A stretch of 64,000 nucleotides of DNA from positions 2,867,199 to 2,931,198 of the forward strand of contig CP000875.1 in the NCBI GenBank assembly GCA_000018565.1, given 5' to 3'. Every line of letters begins with the position of its first letter. The stretch's first letter is position 1. Source of the stretch: Herpetosiphon aurantiacus DSM 785. GTDB lineage: Bacteria; Chloroflexota; Chloroflexia; Chloroflexales; Herpetosiphonaceae. The position numbers were made by a program, and so were the translations under genes. Below, in pieces: positions 41,540 to 50,258 of this stretch. The notes under the pieces are model-generated. The model did not search any database, was not told the DNA's origin, and was given only the letters and a program-made list of their open reading frames with translations.

Positions 41540-41635
41540 CACACAACTCCTGTTGGTTAATTCGATGGCGCTAGCTTAGCTCAATATATTGCTTAAAACT
41601 TGACATTTTCTACCAACCTATTGAAGGCTTTTCCG

Positions 41636-44323
41636 ATGGAACATCAACGCCCAAATCCAGATCAACTGCTCGAACGGATTCAGAGTGCCAACCAACAAGC
41701 CCAACGCGGGCGTTTGAAGGTATTTTTTGGGGCGGCGGCAGGTGTTGGCAAAACCTATGCCATGTTGCAGGCCGCCCAACAACGCCGTGCCGAAGGCATC
41801 GATGTGCTAGTTGGCTATATTGAAACCCATGGCCGCGCCGAAACTGATGCCCTTTTGGTGGGCTTGCCTCAACTGCCAGCCTTGCAGGTTGAATATCGTG
41901 GCACAAGCTTACGCGAATTTGACCTTGATGCCGCCTTGGAACGTAAACCGAGCCTGATTTTGGTTGATGAATTGGCGCATAGTAACGCGCCCAATTTGCG
42001 CCATGCCAAACGCTGGCAAGATATTAACGAGTTGCTGCACGCTGGCATTGATGTCTATACCACAGTCAATGTGCAACATCTCGAAAGCCTGAATGATCTG
42101 GTGGCCCAAGTCACGGGGGTGATCGTGCGCGAAACGGTGCCCGATGCGGTGCTGGAATCCGCCGATGAAGTGGAATTGATCGATTTGCCACCCGATGAGT
42201 TGCTTGGGCGTTTGAATGAGGGCAAGATTTATATCGCCAGCCAAGCAGCGCAAGCGGCCCGCAATTTCTTTCGTAAAGGCAATTTGATTGCCCTGCGCGA
42301 ATTGGCGCTACGCCGCACTGCCGATCGGGTCGATGCCCAAATGCAGCGCTACCGCCATGATCACGCGATTCCTACAACATGGCCAACCCGCGAACGCTTG
42401 TTGGTAGGGGTTGGCCCAAGCCCACTTTCCGAGCGCTTGGTTCGCGCAACCCGACGCATGGCCAACGATCTCAAGGCTGAATGGCTGGTGGTGTATGTTG
42501 AAACACCCAAGCATTTGCGGCTCAGCGAGGCCGATCGCGATCGGGTGACCGCAACCTTGCGTCTCGCCGAAAGTTTGGGAGCACAAATCGTCACGCTTGG
42601 CGGAATCAATCCAGGTGAAGAGATGCTGCGCTATGCTCGCCAACGCAATGTGTCGAAAATTGTAGTCGGCAAGCCAGCCCAGCCACGTTGGCGCGAGCTG
42701 CTTTTTGGCTCGATCGTTGATCAACTGATTCGCCAGAGTGGTGAAATTGATGTGTATGTGATCAGCGGCGAGCATGACGATACCCATAAACCCAACGCCA
42801 AACCAAGCCTACAACCCCATTCGCCAAAAATAAATTATGTCAAATCGAGCGGCGTGGTGTTAGCTTGCACAATGGTTTGTTATGGCATCTTTCCGCATCT
42901 CGAATTATCGAATTTGATTATGTTGTATTTGTTGGGGGTAACGTGGGTGGCGGCGCGTTACGGACGCGGGCCTGCGATCAGCGCCTCAATTTTAAGCGTA
43001 GCAGCCTTTGATTTCTTTTTCGTCCAGCCCTATTTGACCTTCGCTGTCTCCGATGTGCAATATATTTTGACCTTCATGGTGATGTTGATTGTGGCGTTGA
43101 CGATCAGCACCTTGACCGTGCAAATTCAAGCGCAGGCCGAAACTGCCCGCCAACGCGAACGCCGCACCGCCGCGCTCTATGCCATGACCCGCGAATTTGC
43201 CAGCATTCGCGGCTTGGATAATTTGCTGCAAACAGCGGCTCAACATATTAGCAGCGTGTTTGAAGGCCAAACCGCAATCTTATTGCCCAACCCTAAGGGC
43301 CAACTGCGGCCAATTGTTGGTCAACAATGGCCATTCATCAGCGATCAACGCGAACTGATTACTGCGCAATGGGTCTATGATCATCAGCAAAAAGCTGGAA
43401 TGCACAGCGACACCTTGCCCAGTGCCCAAGCTATGTATCTGCCGCTGATTGCGACGCGCGGAGTTGTGGGAGTCTTGGCATTGCAGCCAGAACAACCACG
43501 CCGTTTGCTCGATCCCAGCCATGTGCATTTGCTCGAAACCTTTGCCAACCAAACCACTGTAGCGATCGAACGTGCTCACTTGGCCGAAGAAGCGCAAGCT
43601 GCGAGCGTGCAAATTGAAACTGAACGTATGCGGAACTCGCTGCTTAGCTCAGTTTCCCACGATTTACGCACACCTTTGGCGGCCATTAGCGGCGCTGCCA
43701 GCACCTTGCTTGATCAAACCAACCAGCTTGATCAACACATCCAACACGAATTAATTCAAACCATCGCCGATGAAGGCCAGCGACTCAATCGGTTACTAAG
43801 CAATTTGTTGGATATGACGCGACTAGAGGCTGGCGCAGTTCAAGTGCATAAAGAATGGCAAGCGCTCGAAGAAGTGTTGGGCACGGCCTTGGCACGTTTA
43901 GCCCCGCAAATCGATCAACGTTCAATCAGCATCGAGCTACCAAACCAAGCGTTTGTGCCTTTCGATAGCATTTTGATCGAGCAAGTGTTGGTTAATTTGC
44001 TGGAAAATAGCCTCAAATATAGCCCCAGCAGCAGCCCGATTGAAATTCGGGCGGTTGAACGGATTGGTTTGATCGAAGTGCAGATTGCAGATCATGGGCC
44101 TGGGATTCCCCCAAGTGCGCTTGAAACAATCTTCGAGAAATTTTTTCGGGTGCAGGCCAAACGTTCAGCCAGCAGTGGGGTTGGGTTGGGCTTGACGATT
44201 TGCCGTGGAATTATCGAGGCCCATGGTGGTACAATTTGGGCCGAAAATCGCCCAGCTGGCGGCGCAATCTTTGCCTTCACCCTGCCAATCGAAGGCCAGC
44301 CACCGCAAATTCGAGGAGAATAG
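41636..44323 (+). CDS. kdpD: Potassium-sensing histidine kinase KdpD
   Basis: A protein of 895 residues, the normal KdpD length. Residues ~20-230 are the KdpD N-terminal domain with Walker A FFGAAAGVGKTYAML and LVDELAHSNAPNLRHAKRW. A universal-stress-protein-like domain follows (~250-370). Four closely spaced membrane helices (DUF4118) lie at ~400-500, then a GAF-like domain, the HisKA box with phospho-acceptor H675 (SHDLRTPLAAISG) and the HATPase domain (N-box LVNLLENSLKYSP, GLGLTICRG). It senses low potassium or turgor and controls KdpE. The start at 41636 has GAAGG 8 bases upstream. kdpE follows after 5 bases. Confidence 0.96.
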   Translation: MEHQRPNPDQLLERIQSANQQAQRGRLKVFFGAAAGVGKTYAMLQAAQQRRAEGIDVLVGYIETHGRAETDALLVGLPQLPALQVEYRGTSLREFDLDAALERKPSLILVDELAHSNAPNLRHAKRWQDINELLHAGIDVYTTVNVQHLESLNDLVAQVTGVIVRETVPDAVLESADEVELIDLPPDELLGRLNEGKIYIASQAAQAARNFFRKGNLIALRELALRRTADRVDAQMQRYRHDHAIPTTWPTRERLLVGVGPSPLSERLVRATRRMANDLKAEWLVVYVETPKHLRLSEADRDRVTATLRLAESLGAQIVTLGGINPGEEMLRYARQRNVSKIVVGKPAQPRWRELLFGSIVDQLIRQSGEIDVYVISGEHDDTHKPNAKPSLQPHSPKINYVKSSGVVLACTMVCYGIFPHLELSNLIMLYLLGVTWVAARYGRGPAISASILSVAAFDFFFVQPYLTFAVSDVQYILTFMVMLIVALTISTLTVQIQAQAETARQRERRTAALYAMTREFASIRGLDNLLQTAAQHISSVFEGQTAILLPNPKGQLRPIVGQQWPFISDQRELITAQWVYDHQQKAGMHSDTLPSAQAMYLPLIATRGVVGVLALQPEQPRRLLDPSHVHLLETFANQTTVAIERAHLAEEAQAASVQIETERMRNSLLSSVSHDLRTPLAAISGAASTLLDQTNQLDQHIQHELIQTIADEGQRLNRLLSNLLDMTRLEAGAVQVHKEWQALEEVLGTALARLAPQIDQRSISIELPNQAFVPFDSILIEQVLVNLLENSLKYSPSSSPIEIRAVERIGLIEVQIADHGPGIPPSALETIFEKFFRVQAKRSASSGVGLGLTICRGIIEAHGGTIWAENRPAGGAIFAFTLPIEGQPPQIRGE

Positions 44324-44328
44324 CGCTT

Positions 44329-45024
44329 ATGTCAAACACAATTAACGTTTTGGTGATTGAAGATGAAGCACCCATTCGGCGTTTTTTGCGAGCTTCGCTG
44401 CCAAGCCATGGCTATCACTTGATTGAGGCTGAAAATGGCGAAGATGGCTTATTGCAAGCCGCCATGCAACGGCCCGCAATCATTATTCTCGATTTGGGTT
44501 TGCCCGACCTTGATGGCTTGCAAGTCACGCAACGGCTGCGCGAATGGACGAATACGCCGATTATTGTGCTTTCGGCGCGTGGCCGCGAGGACGATAAAAT
44601 TGCAGCCCTCGATGCGGGAGCCGATGATTATTTGACCAAGCCCTTTGGTATGGGCGAATTATTGGCGCGTTTGCGGGTAGCCTTGCGCCATTTACACCAG
44701 CATGGCGGAGAAAAAGGCGAGCCAGTATTTCAAGTTGGCGCATTACGCGTCGATTTGGTACGGCGGCAGGTGTTTGTCGCCGAGCAAGAGGTACATCTCA
44801 CCCCCAACGAATACAATTTGCTGACAACTTTAGTGCAACATGCTGGCAAAGTTATGACCCATCGCCAGCTTTTACGCGAAGTTTGGGGGCCAGCCTACAC
44901 CGAGGAAAACCACTATTTGCGGGTGTATATGGGCCAGTTGCGCCATAAACTTGAAGCTGATCCCGCCCGCCCACGCTATTTACTGACCGAGCCAGGCGTA
45001 GGCTATCGCTTGGCAATCGAATAA
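44329..45024 (+). CDS. kdpE: Response regulator KdpE
   Basis: An OmpR-family regulator of 231 residues. The receiver has E11/D12, phospho-acceptor D55 (IIILDLGLP) and Lys in DYLTKPFG. The C-terminal winged helix includes KVMTHRQLLREVWGPAYTEE. Its ribosome site GAGGAG lies within the end of kdpD, and the genes are 5 bases apart, so they are one transcript. The likely target is the row of TTGA boxes at 45283-45332, upstream of the pump genes. Confidence 0.95.
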   Translation: MSNTINVLVIEDEAPIRRFLRASLPSHGYHLIEAENGEDGLLQAAMQRPAIIILDLGLPDLDGLQVTQRLREWTNTPIIVLSARGREDDKIAALDAGADDYLTKPFGMGELLARLRVALRHLHQHGGEKGEPVFQVGALRVDLVRRQVFVAEQEVHLTPNEYNLLTTLVQHAGKVMTHRQLLREVWGPAYTEENHYLRVYMGQLRHKLEADPARPRYLLTEPGVGYRLAIE

Positions 45025-45032
45025 TTTTCGAT

Positions 45033-45076
45033 CCACGAAGATATTCTAGCCACGAATTGCACGAATTACACGAATG
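45033..45076. repeat. CACGAA-type intergenic repeats after kdpE
   Basis: The 354-bp gap 45025-45378 starts with CCACGAAGAT and then CACGAATTGCACGAATTACACGAATGG, members of the 9-base intergenic class. A GACCCCTAGCC word lies near 45173. The CCTTTTG array and the TTGA boxes follow. Confidence 0.65.
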
Positions 45077-45191
45077 GTTATTATTTTAGCCACAGATACG
45101 CACAGATGTTCAGGATTATATTACTATTCTCAACAGGACTCCCTCCATTTCCGCAGCCCATACTGATCCCTGACCCCTAGCCACTCCTTTG

Positions 45192-45280
45192 CCTTTTGCC
45201 TTTTGCCTTTTGCCTTTTGCCTTTTGCCTTTTGCCTTTTGCCTTTTGCCTTTTGCCTTTTGCCTTTTGCCTTTTGCCTTT
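45192..45280 (+). repeat. Perfect heptanucleotide array (CCTTTTG, about 12.7 copies)
   Basis: Twelve uninterrupted CCTTTTG units plus CCTTT, preceded by one 6-base variant (CCTTTG). It lies between kdpE and the pump genes, directly before the TTGA boxes. The low sequence drift suggests recent slippage, so copy number may vary between strains. It creates an artefactual open frame on the other strand. Confidence 0.95.
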
Positions 45281-45378: not shown

Positions 45379-45471
45379 ATGGATCTATGGTTTCTTGGGC
45401 TGTTTGTGGTTGTGGCGCTCCTAACTTGGGGCTTGCTACGCATGTGTGCTGCGTTGGGAGGCAATCGATGA
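45379..45471 (+). CDS. Small hydrophobic protein preceding kdpF
   Basis: A 30-residue protein, MDLWFLGLFVVVALLTWG then LLRMCAALGGNR: one membrane helix and a short basic tail. GAGG lies 6 bases before the ATG. Its stop overlaps the kdpF start (ATGA, 45468-45471), which is typical of coupled real genes and hard to explain by chance. From memory, similar short proteins ending in a Leu-Cys motif occur before kdpF in other bacteria and are usually left unannotated. It may be an extra KdpFABC subunit or a leader that couples translation; neither is shown. Confidence 0.65.
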   Translation: MDLWFLGLFVVVALLTWGLLRMCAALGGNR

Positions 45472-45557
45472 GTACGTTATATCTGATCGCAGCAATCGTA
45501 ACGCTGGGCTTAGTAATCTATCTGTTCTGGGCCTTGATGCAGCCTGAGGTGTTTTAA
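45468..45557 (+). CDS. kdpF: Potassium-transporting ATPase small subunit KdpF
   Basis: A 29-residue single-helix protein, MSTLYLIAAIVTLGL followed by VIYLFWALMQPEVF. The length, the Tyr/Leu/Ala-rich helix and the PEVF-like tail match KdpF, which stabilises the KdpFABC complex in the membrane. It ends immediately before the kdpA ATG at 45558 with no gap, and overlaps the preceding 30-residue gene by four bases. Confidence 0.88.
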   Translation: MSTLYLIAAIVTLGLVIYLFWALMQPEVF

Positions 45558-47297
45558 ATGATTAGCAATAGTGTGATCCAAATTGGGATCTTTTTGGTGG
45601 TGCTGATGGCCTGTGTTGTGCCACTAGGCCGCTATATGGCCAAAGTTTATGGCGAAAACCCACCACTTCAAGGTTTTTTCGGCCCAATTGAGCGTTTGAT
45701 CTATCGCTTGTTAGGCATCGACGCAAAGAGCGAAATGCATTGGAAGCATTATGCCCTAGCCTTGTTAGGATTCAATGCGATGGGCATGCTGTTGCTCTAT
45801 GGGTTGCAACGGATGCAGGCATGGCTCCCGCTCAATCCGCAACAATTACCAGCGGTAAGCGCCGATTCTGCCTTTAATACCGCAGCCAGCTTTGTAAGCA
45901 ACACCAATTGGCAGGGCTACGCTGGCGAAACCACAATGAGCTATCTAACTCAAATGTTGGGCCTGACGGTGCAGAATTTCGTCTCGGCTGCAACGGGTAT
46001 GGCTGTACTTATTGGCTTGATTCGTGGCATCGCTCGCCGATCCACCAGCACAATTGGCAATTTTTGGGTCGATCTGACGCGCTCGACCATCTATATTTTG
46101 TTGCCATTAGCCTTGGTGTTATCAGTTACCTTGGTTTCGCAAGGGGTTGTCCAGACATTTAGTCCATCCCAAACGGTTGAGTTAATCCAGCCAATCGTCA
46201 ATGCCGATGGCACGACGATCAGCCAACAAACGATTGCCCTAGGTCCAGCCGCTTCGCAAATTGCAATCAAGCAGCTTGGCACTAATGGCGGGGGATTTTT
46301 CAACGTCAATTCGGCGCATCCCTTGGAAAATCCAACGCCGTTGAGCAACTTTTTAGAATTACTCAGCATTCTGCTGATTCCAGCGGCATTGTGTTACACC
46401 TTTGGCCTGATGGTCGGCGATAAACGCCAAGGCTGGGCGATTCTGGCCACGATGACGATTATTTTGCTGGGCTTTACGGTCTTGGCGGTGAGCGCAGAAC
46501 AAGCAGGCAATCCGCTCTACCAAAAACTGGGCGTTGATGATCAAGCCTCGGCATTACAGGCTGGCGGCAATCTGGAAGGCAAAGAAACCCGCTTTGGCAT
46601 CGTCAACTCGGCTTTGTGGGCTACCGTAACCACTGCCGCCTCGAATGGCTCGGTCAATTCGATGCACGATTCGTATACACCGCTTGGCGGTTTGGCTCCG
46701 ATGGTGCTGATGCAACTAGGCGAGGTGGTTTTTGGCGGCGTTGGCTCAGGCCTGTATGGCATGCTGATTTTTGCAATTATCGCGGTGTTTGTGGCGGGCT
46801 TGATGGTTGGCCGCACGCCAGAATATTTGGGCAAGAAAATCGAAGCCTTTGAGATGAAAATGGCAGCGCTGATTATCTTGATTCCCTGTGTGATGACCTT
46901 GTTGATCACAGCAATTGCAGTGAGCAGCGAATCAGGCCGCGCTACCGTGTTCAATAGCGGCGCACATGGCTTCAGCGAGGTGCTGTATGCCGCCACTTCA
47001 GCCGCCAACAACAACGGTAGCGCCTTCGCTGGGCTTGGCGCAAACACCCCGTTTTATAACACATGGCTTGGGATTGCGATGTTGGTTTCGCGCTTTTGGC
47101 TGATTGTACCAACCTTGGCGATTGCTGGCTCGTTGGCTGGCAAAAAGCTGATTCCGCAAAGCGCCGGAACCTTGCCAACTCATACGCCGTTGTTTGTGAG
47201 CTTGTTGATTGGCGTGGTGTTAATTGTCGGGGCACTCACATTTATTCCAGCGCTGGCGCTTGGCCCAATCGTTGAACATTTATTGCTGAGTTTATAA
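45558..47297 (+). CDS. kdpA: Potassium-transporting ATPase subunit A (ion channel subunit)
   Basis: A membrane protein of 579 residues with about ten helices, belonging to the superfamily of K+ transporters. Its four selectivity-filter loops are visible: [40 protein letters not shown] and [13 protein letters not shown]. It takes K+ from outside and passes it to KdpB. The gene begins directly after kdpF and ends 10 bases before kdpB. Confidence 0.97.
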
Positions 47298-47307
47298 GGC
47301 GAGAACG

Positions 47308-49401
47308 ATGAATCATTCACTACCAAAAAACCGCTCACTATTTGATCGAGCGATTGTTGTGCCAGCGCTCAAAGCGGCTTTGCTCAAACTTAATCCACGC
47401 TTGCAGGTACGCAATCCAGTGATGTTTGTGGTCTTTATTGGCGCGATTTTTACCACAGGCTTATGGATTCAGGCGTTATTGGGCAGCGGCGAAACGTCAG
47501 CCAATTTTAGCTTGGCAATCGCTGGTTGGCTCTGGCTCACCCTATTATTTGCTAATTTTGCCGAAGCCATGGCCGAAGGTCGTGGCAAAGCTCAAGCCGA
47601 CACGCTACGTCAATCACGCCGCGATGTGCAGGCAGTTAAATTAAGTGGCCCACAATACAGCAGCAGCCAAACAATTGTTGCTGCTAGTGCCTTGCGCAAA
47701 GGTGATTACATTCTGGTCAGCGCTGGTGAAACAATCGCAGGCGATGGCGATGTGATTGAAGGCGTGGCGGCAGTCGATGAAAGCGCGATCACTGGCGAAA
47801 GCGCTCCGGTGATTCGCGAAAGTGGCGGTGATCGCTCGGCGGTTACTGGGGGCACGCGGGTGCTTTCCGATTGGCTAATTGTGCAAATTACTGCCAATCC
47901 AGGCGAAACCTTTCTCGACCGCATGATTGCTATGGTCGAAGGAGCCAAACGCCAAAAAACACCCAACGAGATCGCCTTGAACATTTTATTGACGGCCTTG
48001 ACGATCATCTTTTTGATGGCAACCGCGACGCTGCTACCATTTTCGATCTATAGCGTTGAGGCCGTCAAGGCGCTCGACTCAAGCAGCCAAGCCTTGCCAA
48101 TCACGGTCACTGCTTTGGTTGCCTTGCTGGTCTGCTTGATTCCAACCACAATTGGCGGTTTGCTCTCAGCAATCGGCATCGCAGGCATGGATCGCATGAT
48201 TCAAGCCAATGTGATCGCGATGTCGGGGCGGGCGGTCGAGGCTGCAGGTGATGTTGATGTGCTGTTGTTGGACAAAACGGGCACGATCACCTTGGGCAAT
48301 CGCCAAGCAACCAACTTTATGCCAGCTGCTGGCGTGGATATCAACGAATTTGCTGATGCCGCTCAATTGGCTTCGCTAGCCGACGAAACGCCTGAAGGTC
48401 GTTCGATTGTGTTGCTGGCTAACCAACGCTACAACATTGCCGAACGCCAAGCCAACCAGCTTGAGGCCGAATTTGTGGCCTTCACTGCCCAAACCCGCAT
48501 GAGTGGCATCAATATCGCTGGTCGCCAAATTCGCAAAGGTGCAGTTGATGCGATTGAACGTTATGTGCAAACCCAACAAGGCAATTTACCAAGCGATGTG
48601 CGAGCCAATGTTGAAACAATTGCCCGCGCTGGTGGTACGCCTTTGGTGGTTGCCGATGGCAAACGAGTTTTGGGCGTGATTCAACTCAAGGATATTGTTA
48701 AAGGTGGCATGAAAGAGCGCTTCGGCGAACTACGGCGCATGGGCATCAAAACCGTCATGATCACTGGTGATAATCCTTTGACCGCTGCGGCGATTGCTGC
48801 CGAAGCTGGAGTTGACGATTTCTTAGCCGAGGCCACGCCCGAAGCCAAACTCAGCTTAATTCGCGAGTATCAAGCTGGCGGGCGCTTGGTAGCGATGACT
48901 GGCGACGGCACCAACGATGCACCCGCCTTGGCGCAAGCCGATGTCGCCGTGGCGATGAATACGGGCACAAACGCCGCCAAAGAAGCGGGCAATATGGTCG
49001 ATCTCGACTCCAACCCAACTAAGTTGATCGAAGTGGTCAAGATTGGCAAGCAACTATTGATGACCCGTGGTGCACTGACGACATTTTCAATCGCCAACGA
49101 TATTGCTAAATATTTTGCAATTATTCCAGCGGCCTTTGCCAGCACCTACCCAGTGCTGAACCAACTCAACATCATGGGCTTGGCCTCACCTGAAAGCGCG
49201 ATTATCTCGGCGGTGATTTTCAATGCCTTGATTATTGTTTTTCTGATTCCCTTGGCTCTGCGCGGGGTGCGCTATCGGGCTGTCGCTGCTGCCCAGGCCT
49301 TGCGCAGCAATCTGCTGATTTACGGGCTTGGCGGCTTGATTGTGCCCTTCATCGGAATCAAACTGATTGATTTATTGTTGGTAGCCTTGGGTTTAGCCTA
49401 G
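47308..49401 (+). CDS. kdpB: Potassium-transporting P-type ATPase subunit B
   Basis: The energy-coupling subunit, 697 residues. Phosphorylated Asp is D322 in [13 protein letters not shown]. The A-domain loop is [15 protein letters not shown]; the Ser of TGES (S165) is the residue whose phosphorylation inhibits the E. coli pump. The P-domain has [15 protein letters not shown] and [23 protein letters not shown]. Membrane helices include the Pro-containing CLIPTTIGG segment. The length and all motifs are normal. A small unknown gene, not kdpC, follows after 9 bases. Confidence 0.97.
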
Positions 49402-49410
49402 GAGAAAATA

Positions 49411-49677
49411 ATGAAACGCCGCACAACTACTTGGGTTTGGCTCGATGCAATCTGCGCTGGCATGATTTTGACAATTGGCGAAATTGAAATTCTCCATTTG
49501 AGCCATGCCTTAACTACATTTTTATCAATTGGCGTATTAATTATCGGCTATGCTGCACTTGGGATGTGGGTTTGGCATCAAACTGCGACTAATCCCACCC
49601 AAGGCCATTTGCAATACATTCGCCGCGACCAACAAGCAACGACCTATCGATGGATTAGTGACGAGGAAGATCAATAA
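49411..49677 (+). CDS. Two-helix membrane protein of unknown function inside the kdp operon
   Basis: A protein of 88 residues with a basic start ([10 protein letters not shown]), two predicted helices (~9-30, [18 protein letters not shown]; ~33-55, [19 protein letters not shown]) and a polar C-terminal tail of ~30 residues ([23 protein letters not shown]). It lies 9 bases after kdpB, and its stop overlaps the kdpC ATG by one base (TAATG), so it is embedded in the operon and translationally coupled to kdpC. Standard Kdp operons have nothing here. It may be an accessory or regulatory subunit of the pump. I do not recognise the family. Confidence 0.8.
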
Positions 49678-50258
49678 TGCGTACATTTTTTCGCCCAGCC
49701 TTGGCTGCGATCATCATATTCAGTGTTTTGACTGGAGTTATTTACCCAGCTTTAGTTACCGTGATTGCGCAAGTAACTTTTCCGGGCCAAGCTAATGGTA
49801 GCCTGATTGAGCAAGCAGGCCAGCAACGTGGCTCTAGCTTAATTGGTCAACAATTTGATCAGCCGGAATATTTTTGGGGTCGGCTTTCGGCAACTGGCCC
49901 AGTGCCCTACAATGCAGCAGCCTCAAGCGGCTCAAATTATGGCCCACTCAATCCAGCCTTAGCCGAAGCAGTTCAAGCCCGAATTGATGCGCTCAAGGCC
50001 GCCGATCCCAGCAATCAGTTGCCAATCCCTGTTGATTTGGTCACCGCCTCGGCCAGCGGGCTTGATCCCGAAATTTCGCCAGCTGCGGCAAATTACCAAG
50101 TGCAACGAGTCGCCGCTGCCCGCGGCTTGGCGGTCGAGCAAGTCCAACAGTTGGTTGAGCAGCATACAAGCCAGCGCACCTTAGGGGTTTTAGGCGAGCC
50201 ACGAGTAAATGTGCTGCAATTAAATATCGCACTCGATCAAATTAAATCGCTTGATTAA
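49677..50258 (+). CDS. kdpC: Potassium-transporting ATPase subunit C
   Basis: A protein of 193 residues, normal for KdpC. One N-terminal helix ([20 protein letters not shown]) anchors a soluble domain with the family words [30 protein letters not shown]-like [32 protein letters not shown] and [17 protein letters not shown]. KdpC acts as a chaperone-like subunit that raises the pump's ATP affinity. It is the last kdp gene; a palindromic repeat follows. Confidence 0.96.

Follow-up and report, generated by a model that had tools for sequence, protein, structure and literature searches.

A conserved 88-residue protein encoded between kdpB and kdpC in Herpetosiphon as a candidate lineage-specific subunit of the Kdp potassium pump

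The Kdp pump is regarded as a complex of four subunits, and a sequence-only reading of the DNA described here took kdpFABC to be the standard operon. This statement overlooks exceptions. The Synechocystis pump is written KdpABGCD in a 2026 paper (PMC13099474), so a gene between kdpB and kdpC already has a published name. The passage concerned gives the operon name alone; judging by position, the published G would be an extended KdpF. KdpF was found in 44 of 146 cyanobacterial genomes, and 25 of 30 cyanobacterial KdpF loci encode a KdpF of 66–108 aa flanked by kdpB and kdpC (lengths counted from the first start codon, set mechanically). In the remaining five, the stretch read lacks one or both flanks, and two of them are short 29-aa forms. 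The kdpB–kdpC interval of pAQ7 (Picosynechococcus PCC 7002; L136, 15986–17135) contains genes for a response regulator and for an 83-aa protein with the annotation subunit F, whose C-terminal KdpF domain (PF09604) scores over the Pfam cut-off, as well as a 47-aa ORF. The 47-aa ORF is very basic and is also found in L137 and L138.

In the open-licence literature, no title on a kdp operon was among the matches listed for “kdpG”, and where kdpG was sought together with kdpB and kdpC, KDPG proved to be a metabolite abbreviation. The phrase “between kdpB and kdpC” had zero occurrences in the same literature, and no paper was among the matches listed for Herpetosiphon together with kdp. Small accessory membrane subunits are described in several P-type ATPase families, and phospholamban, sarcolipin, and FXYD of the animal P-type ATPases are given as single-helix peptides (PMC10654040). 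The protein discussed below is likened to these peptides in its proposed mode of action alone, and no homology is claimed. By its anatomy and hydropathy, it is likewise a small, predicted membrane-spanning protein encoded in a pump operon.

The window (the whole stretch of 64,000 nucleotides of Herpetosiphon aurantiacus DSM 785 that was analyzed) carries a kdp operon, ordinary apart from one added gene, in which all genes lie on the + strand, in the order kdpD-like, kdpE-like, kdpF, kdpA, kdpB, an 88-aa ORF, and kdpC. The identities of KdpF, KdpA, KdpB, KdpC, and the response regulator were obtained from Pfam or NCBIfam. The features are as follows.

41600–44323, + strand: KdpD-like sensor kinase gene, assigned by eye from the sequence, with a mechanical start
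44329–45024, + strand: KdpE-like response regulator gene (Pfam Response_reg and Trans_reg_C), its start being the ATG after AGGAG
45468–45557, + strand: canonical kdpF, 29 aa with a QPEVF end (PF09604, 29.8 bits against a cut-off of 21.2)
45558–47297, + strand: kdpA (PF03814, 824.9 bits)
47308–49401, + strand: kdpB (NCBIfam TIGR01497, 1074.1 bits)
49399–49404, + strand: TAGGAG, in which the kdpB stop (49399–49401) overlaps the likely Shine-Dalgarno sequence of the 88-aa ORF
49411–49677, + strand: 88-aa ORF, with its ATG at 49411 and its stop ending at 49677
49663–49679, + strand: GAGGA and TAATG, the GAGGA inside the last codons of the ORF being the likely kdpC Shine-Dalgarno sequence, followed by the stop/start overlap
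49677–50258, + strand: kdpC (PF02669, 259.9 bits)

Re-reading of the sequence confirmed the earlier placement of 88 codons between kdpB and kdpC at 49411–49677, with 9 bases between the kdpB stop (49401) and the ORF and an overlap of one base with the kdpC ATG (49677). At this TAATG junction, the ORF stop (TAA) shares its final A with the kdpC start codon (ATG). Both the TAGGA ahead of the ORF and the GAGGA and TAATG ahead of kdpC are unchanged in all six sampled genomes of the genus, and this invariance makes coupled translation of the ORF and kdpC very likely, so that both proteins would be made in step. The co-transcription and translational coupling proposed earlier are well supported by the operon anatomy.

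The protein has a short, basic N-terminus (residues 1–7), followed by a probable first transmembrane segment (about 8–27), a short loop, a probable second segment (about 36–56), a linker, and a tail (65–88). Glu24, close to the end of the first hydrophobic segment, is invariant in the six genomes. The two helices claimed by the sequence-only reading agree with hydropathy, which gives two segments in all six genomes, the first weak (1.55–1.82) and the second stronger (1.93–2.39). They do not agree with AlphaFold2, which, from the single sequence, draws residues 3–60 as one continuous helix (mean pLDDT 81, pTM 0.45). This 58-residue helix, from a model built without an alignment, was judged implausible; given this model, a topology with two helices is likely, not certain. 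The protein is basic at either end, which by the positive-inside rule favors a cytosolic location of both termini. The predicted cytosolic tail (consensus GHLQYxRRDQQAxxYRWIxDEExQ) is the most conserved region of the protein. Invariant columns number 19 of 24 there and 51 of 88 in the whole protein (permutation p ~0.011), and between-clade identity is 82% in the tail, compared with 68% and 59% for the two hydrophobic segments. Part of this conservation is explained by the last codons, which double as the likely kdpC ribosome site.

In each of the six genomes sampled from the genus, the ORF was found between kdpB and kdpC. The window protein is 94–95% identical to that of two genus members and 60–64% identical to that of the other three, which form a second clade. 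Between-clade identity in the same loci reaches 88–90% for KdpC and 95–96% for KdpB (residues 203–688); since the pump proteins are more conserved, the 88-aa ORF is constrained but faster-evolving. The sequence-only reading had held that a protein sequence without conservation would speak against an accessory or inhibitory subunit, and this was not what was found. In length, the two clades differ by no more than a single complete codon, and dN/dS is 0.04–0.25 (Nei-Gojobori, 15 pairs from the six genomes), with the between-clade pairs at dS 1.0–1.7, near synonymous saturation. On these comparisons, the ORF is a genuine gene, more than a chance ORF, under purifying selection. A separate KdpF is present in all six genomes, so the ORF adds to the operon and does not replace KdpF.

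No homologue of known function was found for the ORF in Pfam, NCBIfam, or solved structures. Pfam returned nothing over the cut-off (the sole row was LPD14, E 0.15), and NCBIfam gave no match. The KdpF profiles PF09604 and TIGR02115 both match the KdpF upstream and do not match the ORF at E≤1. Among solved structures, the one match was the Rubisco large chain (E 0.2), which was taken as chance. Plasmid sequences gave no match at E≤1, and of 28 pattern matches in viral contigs none was confirmed. An origin from another kdp protein of the window was also considered and rejected, as the profile found nothing among the six (best E 0.14).

The sequence-only reading had further proposed a search for the ORF in other Chloroflexota, and had counted its absence from close relatives against the idea of a subunit. 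The outcome is divided: the ORF is kept throughout the sampled genus and was not found in any kdp locus read from another genus. The profile A1, built from the six genus proteins, was run against 82 genomes of the order and gave six matches at E≤0.01, all in the window's genus. KdpC is present in 24 of these 82 genomes, so across most of the order the absence of the ORF goes with no KdpC found. Outside the genus, both kdpB and kdpC could be read at 13 loci of the order, and none has the ORF; one of them is that of G007, which belongs to the same family as the window's genus and has a kdpB–kdpC spacing of 16 bases. In 400 Chloroflexota genomes, A1 matched the six genus members, G098 (E 3.3e-6), and G344 (E 0.005); the G344 match lies inside a 545-codon frame and was taken as chance. 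Against 142 cyanobacterial genomes, it gave one marginal match (G452, E 0.0088, 44 positions covered). As far as sampled, the ORF thus appears restricted to the window's genus. No other sampled genus has it in the pump operon, so the pump does not need it.

The G098 match (L178, 1501–1698, minus strand) is stronger than the chance expectation over 400 genomes. It can be read only through two in-frame stops, overlaps the ends of two other ORFs in antisense orientation, and lies on contig C16, with kdpC on C2. It was taken as chance, though it may be a decayed copy.

The kdpB–kdpC gap was also measured across the Chloroflexota. KdpC was detected in 116 of the 400 genomes, and 80 upstream regions were taken, nearly all from full-length KdpC matches; those left out were most of the matches that were split or partial, the full-length matches with the lowest scores, and some second copies. 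Together with 25 loci of the order these make 105, of which 97 were measured and eight dropped (seven had no kdpB upstream, and one had no KdpC match). In 64 of the 97 loci, all outside the genus, the gap is ≤98 bases, and in 33 it is >100 bases, loci of one genome or genus not being independent counts. Among the 33 long gaps, the window family accounts for six loci, one holds a 74-aa ORF with two hydrophobic segments, and 16 others contain no ORF with a predicted helix. Among the gap ORFs, selection was measured for that of the window and its genus.

Several other kinds of gap gene were seen in this survey. A one-helix ORF of ~50 aa, unlike that of the window, occupies the gap of L031 (G036), L047 (G068), and L051 (G067), the three genomes representing three genera of the same order as the window. 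A protein of ~250 aa lies in the gap of L057 (G306), L060 (G291), and L064 (G107). The one tested, that of L060, has a DUF4118 domain, the membrane domain of KdpD, and the protein looks as if part of the sensor had been relocated to the pump operon. Of the three genomes, G306 gave a KdpF match, and none was found in G291 or G107. A further ORF of 109–135 aa with a hydrophobic N-terminal half (A3) is present in L113 (G417), L130 (G210), and L092 (G350), and a one-helix relative in L065 (G250) is likewise just upstream of kdpC. At a threshold of 1.5, the number of hydrophobic segments in A3 is two for G417, one for G210, and zero for G350 (1.46). An A3 profile run against the 400 genomes at E≤0.01 matched six: its own three rows, G250 (E 4.6e-4), and G184 and G314 (0.005–0.007), the G314 match being off its kdpC contig.

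These systems offer several ways to read the window's protein. Its resemblance to the cyanobacterial extended KdpF covers position and general architecture: the operon spot is the same, the length similar (66–108 aa in cyanobacteria), and an extra hydrophobic stretch ahead of the KdpF helix counts as a further likeness. The cyanobacterial protein, however, ends in the KdpF domain with a PE[RK]F ending, whereas the window protein has no KdpF motif, carries a conserved C-terminal tail of its own, and coexists with a normal KdpF. KdpF itself is also small, hydrophobic, and encoded in the same operon, but it is 29 aa long in the window, has the PE-F ending, and shows no detectable similarity to the 88-aa protein. 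In hhalign against 27 cyanobacterial sequences, the window family reached P 0.16, weaker than reversed controls (0.035 and 0.051). As a normal kdpF is also present, the ORF is not a moved KdpF, and identity with KdpF or KdpG was rejected on Pfam, on the separate KdpF, and on hhalign with its reversed controls; we therefore consider it hardly credible that the ORF is a KdpF that was displaced or duplicated, or a KdpG of the cyanobacterial type. It is somewhat less implausible, although still very unlikely, that the ORF works mainly as a spacer whose translation sets the dosage of KdpC through stop–start coupling, with a peptide of little importance. The TAATG overlap and GAGGA, invariant in 6/6, would suit such a role, but dN/dS well below 1 and the 51 invariant residues argue for a peptide that matters, and the 64 of 97 gaps of ≤98 bases indicate that a long spacer is not needed.

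Two other readings deserve more weight, and both are nonetheless improbable. One places the ORF, as a divergent member, in a wider family of small Chloroflexota proteins (A3), a question of ancestry that is compatible with a pump subunit. A3 occupies the same kdpB–kdpC position (G417, G210, and G350, with the one-helix relative in G250), combines a hydrophobic N-terminal half with a soluble tail, and weakly resembles the window family in motif, the common pattern LS..GH......YGAL..W giving 38% over 26 columns. The hhalign comparison of A3 with the window family (P 0.023 over 26 columns) was the best of those run, the window ORF stands about sixth among non-family ORFs against the A3 profile (redundant background of 2,925), and the one independent strong A3 match in 400 genomes (G250) is also just upstream of kdpC. 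Yet the hhalign probability is 2%, a reversed-sequence control reached P 0.035, and hmmsearch gave E 1.8; the likeness is no more than suggestive. The reverse search with the window family placed no A3 member among the top 25 rows, of the four best A3 places, three belong to the rows used to build the A3 profile, and the two tails differ and fail to align. The other reading, to which we assign a similarly low probability, is that the protein acts on KdpD and not on the pump, for example by reporting pump level or K+ status to KdpD/KdpE via its tail. The KdpD-like and KdpE-like genes are directly upstream on the same strand, the tail is predicted from hydropathy to be cytosolic, and KdpD is reported to act on the pump at the transcriptional as well as the post-translational level (PMC11018627). 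Against this, in position and coupling the ORF goes with the pump genes and not with kdpD/E. No similarity to the window's other kdp proteins was found, which says nothing about contact.

On balance, the 88-aa protein is probably a genus-specific fifth subunit of KdpFABC, a small inner-membrane protein with both ends cytosolic that adjusts assembly or activity of the pump. It would be made in step with KdpC through coupled translation and would join KdpFABC in the membrane. Its conserved basic/acidic tail (65–88) would, judging from the anatomy, be the part that contacts a partner; this partner may be KdpB/KdpC, and the effect may be modulatory. The data speak neither for nor against the inhibitory role that the sequence-only reading had put forward. 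By analogy, the mode of action could be like that of the small single-helix peptides that bind other P-type ATPases. The constant position in 6/6 genomes, the dN/dS of 0.04–0.25, the invariant junctions, the conservation of the tail, and the retention of KdpF were counted in favor of a fifth subunit, as were the small subunits of P-type ATPases and the cyanobacterial extended KdpF at the same position, which argue by analogy. The restriction to one genus, the faster divergence than in the pump subunits, and the lack of a homologue of known function were counted against it. The conserved gene fits the unrecognized accessory subunit suggested from the sequence earlier, and its product is a lineage-specific candidate fifth subunit that can be put to the test; if the protein does not bind the pump, the ORF would be a minor lineage-specific operon gene.

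A small gene at the kdpB–kdpC junction is known from cyanobacteria, and what appears to be new here is an apparently unrelated, genus-restricted protein. The junction is suggested to accept such small genes repeatedly. A broader idea, tentative and in our view rather unlikely, is that it serves as a recurrent docking point, where lineages unrelated to one another each added small membrane subunits of their own to the Kdp pump, and that in the window's genus the conserved cytosolic tail of the added protein regulates the pump. The cyanobacterial extended KdpF, apparently at least three other kinds of Chloroflexota gap gene, and the window's protein look like cases of this kind.

Promoter-like and terminator-like sites in the window operon showed no excess over shuffles. 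Between kdpE and kdpF, a TTTGCCT heptanucleotide array (45188–45280, 13.3 copies, 100% match) sits in the likely kdpFABC promoter region, where a change in copy number could shift expression. Upstream of the array is a 9-base tandem repeat, CACGAATTA (45051–45075, 2.8 copies).
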